This document shows, piece after piece, positions 6,207 through 10,351 of a stretch of DNA of 35,208 bases. The stretch is from Oscillospiraceae bacterium. GTDB lineage: Bacteria; Bacillota; Clostridia; Oscillospirales; Ruminococcaceae. A program made the translations under genes and the position numbers. How positions within the stretch are numbered: the first letter of the stretch is position 1; each line of letters opens with the position of its first letter. The notes beneath the pieces are model-generated. The model ran no database searches. It saw only the letters and a program-made list of their open reading frames with translations, and was not told the DNA's origin. The stretch spans positions 1 through 35,208 of the forward strand of contig JAFZPP010000014.1 of the NCBI GenBank assembly GCA_017550285.1, written 5' to 3'.

Positions 6207-7037
6207 ATGAACCACCAAACGAAAAAACTGACAGCCTGTCTCGCTGCGGCTGCCGCGGTCATACTCAGCGGCTCTGTACTGCCGCTGAACGCTTCGGCAA
6301 GCAGCGTCGAGGATGTCTATGATGCCATGCGCAGAATCGGCATGCCGGAATCCATGATTCAGGAGGCAAAGCTCCAGTATCAGAATACCGAGCATGACGA
6401 GAACGGCATGAGCATCAACGGCACGTATTTCACCTACGATGTCTGGGCGGATATGGTCGAAATCTATGAGGACGATATCTGGACTGAGGTCGGCAAACAG
6501 TTCGGCATCTCAGGCGAGGAAATCAAAAAAGCCTCTACAGAAACCACTCCCGCACAGACCTCCGCTGCCGATCCGCCGGCACAGACGCCCGCACAGCCCC
6601 AGAAGCCTGCGGTCTCCGTCGAACCGTCCAAGCCCTTTGTCAATATGACACTCGATGAGAAAAAGGAATATGTCGCAAGCCTGCCCGAAGAAGAACGTGC
6701 CGGCTTCATCGCCGGTCTCTCCACGACTGAGCGAAACAGCATCATCAAGCAAATGGACACCGGCAGTCAGGCAAATATCGCAAGCGGCTTCATTGAGCTC
6801 GGTGAACAGCTCGGCATGCATATCTCCGTCGATCAGCTCGACGGCAGCGGCATAAATTATTCCGTCCGCAACAGTGAAGGCACACTGATCGACGTTTCCA
6901 GCGTCGGCACTTCCGTCGATGATACCGGCTGGAATACAACCGTCCCCGTGCTCGGCGGCTCCGCCATGATTCTCGGAGCAGTCGGCGGTCTGGTGCTCGC
7001 GTTCCGCAAGCAGCGCAGAGAGGAGCATGACGCATGA
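6207..7037 (+). CDS. Secreted, C-terminally anchored protein A; putative sortase substrate
   Basis: This 276-residue protein has a signal peptide (1-32, cleavage near ASA-SSV). An N-terminal domain contains HDENGMSINGTY (63-74), and a Pro/Thr/Gln-rich linker covers about 110-140. A second domain carries SLPEEERA and a TTERNSIIKQ stretch (158-182). The C-terminus is TGWNTTVPVLGG (240-251), then a hydrophobic segment, then the basic tail RKQRREEH. This tripartite end looks like a cell-wall sorting signal, but it has no LPXTG. Protein B, encoded next, shares the whole architecture and the same C-terminal motif, and a sortase gene follows. AAAGGAG precedes the start. The family is unknown to me. 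An ordinary membrane anchor is the alternative reading of the C-terminus. Confidence 0.88.
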   Translation: MNHQTKKLTACLAAAAAVILSGSVLPLNASASSVEDVYDAMRRIGMPESMIQEAKLQYQNTEHDENGMSINGTYFTYDVWADMVEIYEDDIWTEVGKQFGISGEEIKKASTETTPAQTSAADPPAQTPAQPQKPAVSVEPSKPFVNMTLDEKKEYVASLPEEERAGFIAGLSTTERNSIIKQMDTGSQANIASGFIELGEQLGMHISVDQLDGSGINYSVRNSEGTLIDVSSVGTSVDDTGWNTTVPVLGGSAMILGAVGGLVLAFRKQRREEHDA

Positions 7038-7825
7038 GGAAGATTTACAGAATCATTCCGGCGGCGCTGCTCGGTCTCCTTGCATCCGCTGCCCTGCTGA
7101 CGGCACCAGTCTCCGCTGAAAATGCCACGGCAGACGATGTCTTTGCAACCATGCACGAAATTGGTCTGCCGGACGGCTACATTCAGGCTGTACACACGAA
7201 ATTTCTTTCTCAGCCCGATCAGCATGATGAAAACGGCATGACGATGAACGGCACATACCGCAGCTATGACGAATGGATCAATGTCATCCGTGAAGAGGGC
7301 GCGCTCAAAATCTACGAGGCATCTGCAAACGCAATGGGCGTGGACGTCGAAACGCTGACTCTCATGTTCGGCGAACCGGAGAAAATTGAAAACTATGTTC
7401 CGTCCGTGACGCCGGAAAAGCCGTTCGCCGAAATGACGCTCGAGGAAAAGCGCGCCTATGTGGACAGTCTGCCCGAGGAGGAGCGTGCATTATTCCTCGC
7501 AAGCCTCACGCCGGAGGAGCGCAACAGCATCTTAAAGCAGCTTGATCCCGAGCAGAAGGAGCAGGTCGCAGGCGGTCTCATCGAGCTCGGCGAAGAGCTC
7601 GGTATGCATATCTCGGTCGATGATGTCGATGAATTCCGGTTCAGTGTCCGCGATGACAGCGGCAGACTGATTGGTTCGGCCGGCTTCGGGCTTTCCGTGG
7701 ATGCGACAGGCTGGAATACAACCGTTCCGGTGCTTGCGGGCTCCGGTATGATTCTGCTGTCTGTCGGCGGATTGCTGCTGCTCACCCGCAGAACCGGAAA
7801 ACAGGAGGACAAACAGCATGGCTGA
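7034..7825 (+). CDS. Secreted, C-terminally anchored protein B; paralogue of protein A
   Basis: This 263-residue protein has a signal peptide (1-28, ending VSA) and an N-terminal domain with HDENGMTMNGTY (64-75). A second domain has SLPEEERALF and EERNSILKQ (145-169). The C-terminus is TGWNTTVPVLAG (225-236), then a transmembrane-length segment and the tail TRRTGKQEDK. It is colinear with protein A over its full length except for A's Pro/Thr linker, so the pair arose by tandem duplication. Its ATG overlaps A's stop (ATGA, 7034-7037), and its own stop overlaps the sortase start by 8 bp, implying coupled translation. The function is unknown. The shared, non-LPXTG C-terminal motif suggests both are substrates of the adjacent sortase. 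Confidence 0.88.
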   Translation: MRKIYRIIPAALLGLLASAALLTAPVSAENATADDVFATMHEIGLPDGYIQAVHTKFLSQPDQHDENGMTMNGTYRSYDEWINVIREEGALKIYEASANAMGVDVETLTLMFGEPEKIENYVPSVTPEKPFAEMTLEEKRAYVDSLPEEERALFLASLTPEERNSILKQLDPEQKEQVAGGLIELGEELGMHISVDDVDEFRFSVRDDSGRLIGSAGFGLSVDATGWNTTVPVLAGSGMILLSVGGLLLLTRRTGKQEDKQHG

Positions 7826-8522
7826 ACAAACCGAAAAGAAACGCGGCAGCAAAGCGATTCTCATTCTGACGCCGTTTCTGCTGCTGCTGCTGACCGGCGG
7901 TATTCTGATTCTCTGCTATTCTCTCGCACCGACACATCGCTTGCAGAAATATCTGAATATCGCGTTTATGGATAATCTCAAGACGACCGCACAGACCGAC
8001 GGTCTGCATATTATCGAAAATGATATCAGCACAAATGATACGCCGTCGGAAACCTTTGACGCGGGCGAGATCATCTATCCGACCTTCGGCGAACAGTATG
8101 CGATGCTGCAAATCGAATCGGCGGATATCTATGTCAGCGTCTATTACGGCGTCAATGCGGAACTGCTCGAACGCGGCGCATGCCAGTCCACACAGTCCGC
8201 GATCATCGGCGAGAATCCCGGCAATACCGTCATTGATGCGCATGTCACGACCTTCTTCTCCGAACTCGGCAAAGTGAAGACCGGCGATACGGTCAAGCTC
8301 TATACAAAATACGGCAGATTTGTCTATAAGGTTACGGAGCAGATCGAATTCAGCAAGGAGGACAAGCGCTATCTGACCGTACCGAAGGAGGGCGAATATC
8401 TGACGCTCTATACCTGCAAGCCGCAGGTGCTCGGCAGCCCCGATCAGCGCGTCGGCGTGCGCTGTGAGCCGGTTGAAAAGCAGTTCTATGCGCAGAGCAA
8501 GCAGGAAGGAGGCACACAATGA
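7818..8522 (+). CDS. Sortase family transpeptidase
   Basis: This 234-residue membrane-anchored sortase has a cytoplasmic basic N-terminus, a transmembrane helix at about 13-34 and an extracellular sortase beta-barrel. Catalytic residues are visible: His142 in VIDAHVTTFF (usually GHRDTFF), Cys200 in LTLYTC and Arg211 in DQRVGVRC. The usual Gly before His is Ala, and the residue after it is Val. The layout (IIGENPGNTVID, GKVKTGDTVKLYT) fits class C/D-type sortases. Sortases cleave a C-terminal sorting signal and join the protein to cell-wall peptide or to another protein. Here the likely clients are the two preceding gene products. It overlaps both neighbours (8 bp and 4 bp). The class and target motif are inferred. 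Confidence 0.9.
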   Translation: MAEQTEKKRGSKAILILTPFLLLLLTGGILILCYSLAPTHRLQKYLNIAFMDNLKTTAQTDGLHIIENDISTNDTPSETFDAGEIIYPTFGEQYAMLQIESADIYVSVYYGVNAELLERGACQSTQSAIIGENPGNTVIDAHVTTFFSELGKVKTGDTVKLYTKYGRFVYKVTEQIEFSKEDKRYLTVPKEGEYLTLYTCKPQVLGSPDQRVGVRCEPVEKQFYAQSKQEGGTQ

Positions 8523-9418
8523 GCAAAGCCTCAACCTATATTGCAAGTGTGATTTTTTCGCTGCTGCTGATCTTTCTGATGATCGGCGCAGCACTGGCAG
8601 GCGTCCTGCGCTACTGTGCACTCGATACGGAGACTGCGCTCTCCATCGTGGATTCGCAGAATCTTCCGGCGCGCGTGCATGCAGCACTCGAAACGAATGC
8701 GAAGCAGCAGGAAAGCACAACCGGCATCCCGTATGATGTCTATGCGGAAGCGATTACCGAGGAACAGCTCGCGCCGATCATCCGCGATACCGTCACGAAC
8801 GGCTTTGCCTATCTCCGCGGCGATACCGCAAGCCTCGGCATCCAGCCTGATTTCTCCGCGCTGGAAGCAAAAATCCGCGAATTCTTCATCTCCTATGCCG
8901 AGAAAAACGGCATCAAGCAGAATGAGACCTTCGAGGAAGCCGTCCGCTCGACGACCGATGCGGCAGAGGCGAATATCCTCGCTGCCTGCGATGTGTTCCG
9001 GTTCGGCTCGCTCAATGATGCGGGCGTCATCAAAAAGGCAAAAGTCTATGTCCCGTGGGCAGGCATTGCGGCGCTCGCGCTGATCGCAGCGGTGATTATC
9101 TTCGCCTGCATCCTGTTCCTCATCAATGTGCATGAGCACGGCAACGGCTTCTACTGGATCGGTACGGCATCCCTGATTGCGGCGATTCTGCTGCTGATTC
9201 CGTCCGTCTGGCTGTATCAGGCACGCTGGTTTGACCGCTTCGCCGTCAAGACCGACCAGACCTTTGCGGCAGTCACCGGTTTCCTCTATACGAATACAAA
9301 GGCTGTGATTCTGACAGCAATCGGCGGCATCATTGCTGCAATTTTCATGTATCTGATCTTCGGGCTGTTCCGCCTGCGCAGACATAAGCGCGAGGTGGTC
9401 CGCAAGGCAAAGCACTGA
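8519..9418 (+). CDS. Polytopic membrane protein of the sortase operon
   Basis: This 299-residue protein is not recognised as a named family. It has one N-terminal transmembrane helix (about 8-30), an extracellular domain of about 145 residues, three further helices (about 178-203, 211-233 and 262-285), and a basic cytoplasmic tail, RLRRHKREVVRKAKH. The ATG overlaps the sortase stop (ATGA, 8519-8522). A strong terminator follows the gene. The tight coupling suggests it assists export, positioning or processing of the sortase substrates, but no catalytic motif is visible. Confidence 0.85.
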   Translation: MSKASTYIASVIFSLLLIFLMIGAALAGVLRYCALDTETALSIVDSQNLPARVHAALETNAKQQESTTGIPYDVYAEAITEEQLAPIIRDTVTNGFAYLRGDTASLGIQPDFSALEAKIREFFISYAEKNGIKQNETFEEAVRSTTDAAEANILAACDVFRFGSLNDAGVIKKAKVYVPWAGIAALALIAAVIIFACILFLINVHEHGNGFYWIGTASLIAAILLLIPSVWLYQARWFDRFAVKTDQTFAAVTGFLYTNTKAVILTAIGGIIAAIFMYLIFGLFRLRRHKREVVRKAKH

Positions 9419-9423
9419 CACAG

Positions 9424-9454
9424 AACCGGAGGCACCGATCTGTCTCCGGTTTTT
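9424..9454 (+). terminator. Terminator of the sortase operon
   Basis: Stem AACCGGAG (9424-9431) with CTCCGGTT (9444-9451), followed by TTTT, directly after the last stop codon of the operon. Confidence 0.8.
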
Positions 9455-9556: not shown

Positions 9557-10351
9557 ATGAGAAAGGCAATCAGGATGAAATACATCATTGTGGGTATACT
9601 GCTCGCTGCGATCGCAGGAATCGTCATTTTCCTCGCGGCGCATGCAAAATCCAACAAAAAACAAATGGCTAAGACAATCAGCGAAAGCATGCAGATTCTC
9701 GCGGAGCATTTTCAGGTGACGGAACGCGATCCCGCCGAATATGCACAAATCCGCATCTACGGGCTGATGAAATTCAATGTAAAGCAATATGAAATCGGCG
9801 GCGTCGGCAATCTCTCCGTCATGACAACAAATATGGGCTTTATGCAGATGCTGTCGTTTGTGATTACGCCGTTTGAGAAGAATCTGCCGCTGCTGTCTAT
9901 GGATTTCATGTACTTCCCCGGCAGCCGCAAGACCTATACAGAGGTCTATGATCTCGTCGCGGACAAAGACGCACCGGAATATCAGACCGTACTGGAAACC
10001 ATGAACGGACTCTCTGAGACCGGCAAGGCGCTTGCCGATCTGCCGCGCGGTGAGCTGCCGTGGTACGATCATCTGCTGACCGTCAAGCTATATAAAACCG
10101 GCTCCGCTAAGCAGGATGAGACGATTCATGCGCTCTTCTGCGATGCAGTCAGCCGCTATGCTGACGCTGCGGATACGCTTGAACCGCTCAGCGAGGAAGA
10201 AAAGGCAGTCAAGGCACAGCTCACGCAGCAGTACAGCGACGACCTGATCGAAAAGGGCGGCGTCTCGACCGATGTGTTCAAGAAAGCACTCGGTCCGGAG
10301 AAAACCAAGGATTTCTTCGACAAGGTATTCTTCGGAAACAGCGCACAATAA
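9557..10351 (+). CDS. Membrane-anchored protein with a possible ferredoxin-dependent bilin reductase-like domain
   Basis: This 264-residue protein has an N-terminal transmembrane helix (about 8-28) and a soluble domain of about 230 residues. The central stretch MQMLSFVITPFEKNLPLLSMD (split here: MQMLSFVITPF, 96-106; LPLLSMDFMY, 110-119), followed by VYDLV, resembles the bilin reductase pattern L-x-I-L-H-x-x-x-x-P, then D-x-P-x-x-G-x-D, then x-D. The C-terminus KKALGPEKTKDFFDKVFFG resembles their closing fall-x-x-E-x-x-x-x-Y-x-x-x-x-L-F. Asp116 would match the proton-donating aspartate; the PcyA histidine position is Ser or Leu here. This is remote similarity by eye and needs a profile search. 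Two starts are possible: 9557 (GGAG) or the ATG six codons later (AAAGG). Confidence 0.8.
   Translation: MRKAIRMKYIIVGILLAAIAGIVIFLAAHAKSNKKQMAKTISESMQILAEHFQVTERDPAEYAQIRIYGLMKFNVKQYEIGGVGNLSVMTTNMGFMQMLSFVITPFEKNLPLLSMDFMYFPGSRKTYTEVYDLVADKDAPEYQTVLETMNGLSETGKALADLPRGELPWYDHLLTVKLYKTGSAKQDETIHALFCDAVSRYADAADTLEPLSEEEKAVKAQLTQQYSDDLIEKGGVSTDVFKKALGPEKTKDFFDKVFFGNSAQ

Follow-up and report, generated by a model that had tools for sequence, protein, structure and literature searches.

A Sortase Operon of an Oscillospiraceae Bacterium with Two Paralogous Clients, a Proline-Less Candidate Sorting Signal, and a Membrane Partner of Predicted Lit-Like Fold

Introduction

What does a sortase recognize when it is encoded directly behind two secreted proteins whose candidate sorting signals contain no Leu-Pro, and what is the function of the operon they share? 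This question is raised by a locus in the window analyzed here, the whole 35,208-nucleotide stretch of contig JAFZPP010000014.1 (assembly GCA_017550285.1) of an Oscillospiraceae bacterium. An initial annotation made from the sequence alone had proposed a dedicated sortase system that reads the motif TTVPVL(G/A)G. Below, we compare this proposal with the operon and its relatives by computation.

Results

Operon and Client Proteins

Four open reading frames of the + strand overlap by 4, 8, and 4 bp, as originally described. The first encodes client A (6207–7037, +, 276 aa), which has an RBS-like GAAAGGAG just 5' of the start and matches the client profile. The second encodes its secreted paralogue, client B (7034–7825, +, 263 aa), with 43% identity to client A (alignment A5). 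They are followed by the sortase (7818–8522, +, 234 aa) and a membrane protein, hereafter the partner (8519–9418, +, 299 aa). Directly 3' of the last gene, a terminator-like hairpin, CCGGAG/CTCCGG and then TTTTT, was read directly from the sequence (9426–9454, +). Just downstream of the operon, a 264-aa protein (9557–10351, +) matches ferredoxin-dependent bilin reductase below the cut-off (24.4 vs. 31 bits).

Both clients have an N-terminal hydrophobic segment (residues 8–26 in client A and 7–25 in client B) and a single C-terminal one (residues 248–266 and 233–251, respectively), in keeping with their description as secreted proteins; the tail described as basic is so only in part, with acidic residues present too. 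Hydrophobic segments and the profile match divide client A (6207–7037, +) into a predicted signal peptide, ectodomain, sorting signal, transmembrane segment, and charged tail. According to the alignment, the sorting pentapeptide would be VDDTG in client A (residues 237–241; 6915–6929, +) and VDATG in client B (residues 222–226; 7697–7711, +), with the predicted cut between T and G. In the model of client B, calculated from 68 sequences with a mean pLDDT of 88.5, the folded part extends to the strand at residues 212–217, a linker follows whose residues 221–224 are the sole stretch with pLDDT below 50, and the predicted transmembrane helix occupies residues 230–261. VDATG lies in this linker, and TTVPVL (residues 229–234) lies at the start of the predicted helix.

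Fold comparison found no clear match of the client to any solved fold, and domain searches of the clients revealed neither adhesive nor enzymatic domains. A short helical stretch of client B (residues 131–179) matches MgtE_N just under the cut-off (23.9 vs. 25.9 bits); at E ≤ 0.1, this family is matched by 66 of the 68 clients.

The genome itself holds seven sortase-domain matches. When it was searched at E ≤ 10 with a profile of the C-terminal signal, which would miss unrelated proteins that carry a similar pentapeptide, two matches were obtained, both of them the window clients. A third protein of this genome (L051:1477–2091, +, G000:C22) shares the N-terminal domain of the clients, is secreted, and combines a linker rich in Thr with a hydrophobic segment at its C-terminus; the TG motif is absent from it.

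Recurrence of the Module

Relatives of the sortase and of the clients were sought in 148 genomes of the same family. Sortase relatives with 40–57% identity were present in 12 other genomes, and client relatives, located by eye upstream of the sortase, in 10 others. From a scan of named genomes, we took the best 80 of 183 confirmed loci, several Ruminococcus flavefaciens records among them. A client lies directly upstream of the sortase at 76 of these 80 loci, and a membrane ORF, the partner, directly downstream at 77. As for the remaining four, the client is further upstream at L111, and the contigs of L125, L112, and L150 start only 0, 70, and 211 bases ahead of the sortase match; at the three loci lacking a downstream partner, the contig ends 592–825 bases after the sortase. 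Linkage of this extent exceeds chance and supports the idea of a sortase operon dedicated to clients of its own, with a membrane partner that recurs. Tandem client pairs occur at 17 of the 78 loci with client matches, including the window.

The pairing of client and sortase is further supported by a natural fusion in genome G185 (L063:709–2043, +), where both are joined in one 444-aa ORF with the client signal MTYTG. This ORF adjoins Wzz and CpsB matches.

The partner profile, run against 291 genomes of the class, yielded ten matches above 70 bits besides its own and a longer protein of genome G314. Nine of the ten adjoin a sortase match, and the tenth (G245) starts at an apparent contig edge. 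Among 249 genomes of the phylum, seven besides the own genome were matched by the sortase profile (E ≤ 1e-30) and one by the partner profile (E ≤ 1e-15), at 68.1 bits, in a genome where the sortase profile has no match at its threshold.

Identity and Class of the Sortase

The third protein of the operon is a sortase, as annotated, scoring 66.9 bits with PF04203 (cut-off 26.6) and 61.3 bits with TIGR01076 (cut-off 39.35), and it has one N-terminal hydrophobic segment. Its proposed His142, Cys200, and Arg211 are invariant in all 24 aligned sortases, its own sequence included. These residues bear on the possibility that the enzyme is a protease only, which releases the clients without linking them to the wall. 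Such a role would agree with the fact that no acceptor is known and with the client domain search described above, but the catalytic Cys, His, and Arg are kept, as is the layout of signal, transmembrane helix, and charged tail, and we consider simple release rather unlikely.

The best class matches of the sortase are the class D models, and one might expect an ordinary class D enzyme that anchors ordinary LPXT-type proteins. However, it falls below both class D cut-offs (67.7 vs. 165 bits for NF033746 and 67.2 vs. 140 bits for NF058671), and the best scores among the 24 aligned sortases, those of L024 (120.2 and 126.6 bits), are likewise below them. In contrast, seven control sortases from other classes of the phylum, represented by partial sequences, pass NF058671 in seven cases and NF033746 in five, and at five of the seven control loci a neighboring protein ends in LPxTS or LPxTA. 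No substrate of the LPxTA, LPxTS, or LPQTGS type was found in the operon, whose clients have VDDTG and VDATG. An ordinary class D system is thus improbable.

In a quick tree of 101 sortases, which contained no named class references, the label "has partner" requires 3 changes, compared with 31.2 in shuffles. The tree separates 32 other sortases (97*), and the sortases of the system are not resolved as one clade. Nested among them are three sortases of the same subfamily (L214, L215, and L216; 170–176 bits) without client or partner, indicating that the module can come apart. Four further sortase matches in genome G135 (contigs C8, C17, C27, and C66) have near-identical scores of 24.0–24.4 bits and perhaps represent a repeated locus.

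The Partner Membrane Protein

The four membrane helices originally assigned to the fourth protein are recovered as hydrophobic segments at residues 11–29, 183–201, 214–232, and 263–281. The protein appears to resemble Lit (PF07314) by predicted fold and by profile. Lit is described as having four transmembrane helices and an extracellular cap (PMC8275575); the partner, with its four hydrophobic segments, is predicted to be helical in its extracellular part, and it differs in its length (299 residues vs. 215–224 in the solved Lit chains) and in that its gene is tied to a sortase.

The resemblance raises the possibility that the partner is an active Lit-like transacylase and that the product of the module is a client or acceptor carrying a lipid modification. 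The catalytic pair of Lit, His85/His153, is absent from the partner, no column of the alignment has His in at least 60% of 66 sequences, and in the wide alignment no column has at least six His among the 29 wide members. Transacylase activity has little probability, and the partner would be a protein of Lit-like predicted fold that lacks the catalytic histidines. Since no column of the wide alignment is conserved in at least 90% of the sequences, the role of the partner is guesswork.

Two long relatives of the partner, of 484 and 433 aa (L173 and L174, genomes G314 and G394), lie in short loci in which no sortase was seen, and each adjoins a secreted protein with tandem aromatic repeats.

The Sorting Signal

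The motif counts refer to the 76 clients that adjoin the sortase among the best 80 of 183 confirmed relative loci. T-G is present in all 76, as is the pattern [VIA][DEAN]xTG; 71 have [VI][DE]xTG, and none has LPxTG. The most frequent pentapeptides are VEDTG (23), IDETG (12), and VDDTG (9), and 75 of the 76 clients have a hydrophobic segment above 1.6. TTVPVL occurs in only five of them and WNTT in two, which refutes TTVPVL as a family-wide motif.

TTVPVL(G/A)G had been proposed as the recognition motif on the grounds that it is the longest exactly conserved stretch between the clients. The observation itself is correct, since TGWNTTVPVL (10 residues) is the longest exact match, but the argument is weak because two others, SLPEEERA and LGMHISVD, have 8 residues each; moreover, the stretch contains the T-G found to be conserved. 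Homologous operons keep the sortase yet lack TTVPVL, an outcome that the initial annotation had itself named as counting against its motif, and the conserved signal is the T-G just upstream. That the sortase recognizes a wholly non-LPXTG signal, TTVPVL(G/A)G, is highly improbable: the exact match and the adjacency of the sortase to both clients favor it, whereas its rarity among relatives and its position at the start of the predicted helix of client B speak against it. The term "non-LPXTG" is right for positions 1 and 2, where Leu-Pro is missing, and wrong for the rest, as T-G is kept. The order typical of LPXTG-type proteins, namely, a T-G pentapeptide, a hydrophobic segment, and a charged tail, is also present. 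Judging from these sequences, [VI][DE]xTG describes the signal better, as a motif in the LPXTG register without the proline.

Outside the clade of the window, another 27 systems whose client lies upstream were read by eye. T-G is found in 25 of the 27 clients, mostly as IKxTG (IKATG, IKQTG, IKSTG, IKPTG, IKKTG, IKNTG, and IKDTG); examples are IKATG at L022 and L025, IKSTG at L034, and IKDTG at L026, and L023 has two candidate TG sites. Other forms are IQPTG, WKQTG, VNQTG, VSTTG, VTETG, VANTG, TPNTG, and LANTG, and LPFTG occurs in two wider relatives only, L056 and L057. Two clients have no TG, L030 and L061 (KKTS). At L058, L213, and L225, no client was found, although partner and sortase are present. 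The T-G of the wider family and the LPFTG of L056 and L057 suggest a variant of the LPXTG signal that is read in the same register.

Position 2 is acidic in the clade of the window and basic in the wider clade, and in this it differs from the motifs that the passages considered of PMC4498605 and PMC12445088 give for sortases. The mean net charge of the β6–β7 loop of the sortase is −0.74 in 76 systems with acidic signals and −4.87 in 15 systems with basic signals. This charge match between signal and loop is no more than suggestive, being tied to two clades, with only 2 independent pairs on the tree.

Genomic Setting

Within the clade of the window, the module was found to have no fixed neighbors. 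Among all systems, 11 of 41 have Wzz or CpsB within 5 kb, compared with none of the 30 other sortases (Fisher p = 0.0017); at 20 kb, the figures are 15 of 41 and 1 of 30 (p = 0.0011). The genomes are not independent of each other, and many of the contigs are short. The chance expectation, calculated for a first list of 40 places, was 0.32 within 5 kb; this list included G142:C7, which was added after its Wzz neighbor was known and was later found to be a complete system. The final 41 systems were sorted by the presence of the partner, which removed G134:C7 and brought in G018:C8 and G031:C53. The 30 comparison sortases come from the same genomes, and 17 of them were checked for absence of the partner.

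By clade, Wzz or CpsB within 20 kb is seen in 2 of 13 systems of the window's clade and in 13 of the 28 others. The genome of the window has no Wzz and no CpsB match, and its three Bac_transf matches lie elsewhere. For the wider family, a role of the module in the construction or attachment of a capsule or exopolysaccharide layer is probable; the clade to which the window belongs rarely shows this link.

Discussion

Proposed Mechanism

Taken together, our results make it likely that the operon is a self-contained surface-anchoring module comprising clients, a sortase that cuts VD[DA]TG between T and G, attachment to the envelope, and a near-constant partner of predicted Lit-like fold. The module probably anchors one or two surface proteins of this gut bacterium's own to the cell envelope. 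The clients would be exported by means of their signal peptides and then held by the C-terminal membrane helix, with the sortase anchored in the membrane by its own N-terminal helix. The sortase would cut the T–G bond of VD[DA]TG in the flexible linker just outside the membrane. The new C-terminus of the client would be joined to an amino group of the envelope, most likely a wall-peptide amine, so that both T–G cleavage and covalent wall linkage of the clients are predicted. The partner would probably hold the substrate, the acceptor, or the sortase at the membrane surface and not act as a catalyst. In this scheme, the operon structure, the identity and triad of the sortase, the conservation of T-G, the place of the motif in the client model, and the repeated linkage of the three genes come from the computed results, and the cleavage, the acceptor, and the function of the partner are inferred.

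One family of operons reads LPFTG, IKxTG, or VDxTG with T-G constant. This variety would allow the rules that govern sortase specificity to be examined within one lineage, and it could provide enzymes with a peptide tag of a new kind. A search that requires L-P would overlook such surface proteins in Ruminococcus flavefaciens and related Oscillospiraceae. The repeated occurrence at capsule loci and the partner with its predicted Lit-like fold also raise the question of joint protein and polysaccharide assembly at the cell surface.

Comparison with Known Systems

A sortase, a sorting signal, and a surface protein are already known kinds of components. What appears to be undescribed in the open literature is the proline-less acidic signal, a sortase lineage close to the class D cut-offs but below them, and the recurrent partner of predicted Lit-like fold. 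No description of this system was recognized in the open-licence literature, which is weak evidence, since motif strings rarely appear in text; in the parts of PMC4081043 and PMC11557425 considered, a sortase is named only for scaffoldin anchoring.

Class D, with LPNTA and LPQTGS (class motifs compared here are those of PMC4498605 and PMC12445088), is the best class match, and there too a sortase gene is clustered with its own client, as for SrtD of C. perfringens and its anchor protein (PMC4498605). Here, however, an acidic or basic residue stands in place of the proline and T-G in place of T-A or T-S, the class cut-offs are failed, and there is a putative Lit-fold partner, matched outside the class only weakly and in 1 of the 249 phylum genomes besides its own. 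The other sortases of the same genomes, pilus-type ones among them, share the sortase domain. Unlike the sortases of the system, they have upstream neighbors that mostly end in LPxTG and no partner in those checked, and they branch apart in the quick tree (97*, 32 rows).

The PEP-CTERM/EpsH system is described as combining a C-terminal motif, a transmembrane segment, a basic cluster, and a membrane processing enzyme in exopolysaccharide loci, and EpsH is stated not to be homologous to sortase (PMC1569441). The C-terminal motif, transmembrane segment, basic cluster, membrane processing enzyme, and setting at exopolysaccharide loci are alike in our module, and the comparison as a whole is one of analogy only. 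Our enzyme is a PF04203 sortase with a single hydrophobic segment, not of the polytopic EpsH type, and the module has one or two clients at the locus. Speculatively, and with a fairly low probability in our estimation, the whole could be a Clostridia-type counterpart of exosortase/PEP-CTERM. In it, a sortase subfamily and a non-catalytic Lit-fold partner would couple the anchoring of one small surface protein to capsule or exopolysaccharide assembly, possibly through an amine borne by a lipid or a polysaccharide in place of the customary wall peptide, and the β6–β7 loop of the enzyme would have a charge that suits the residue at signal position 2 (P, K, or D/E).
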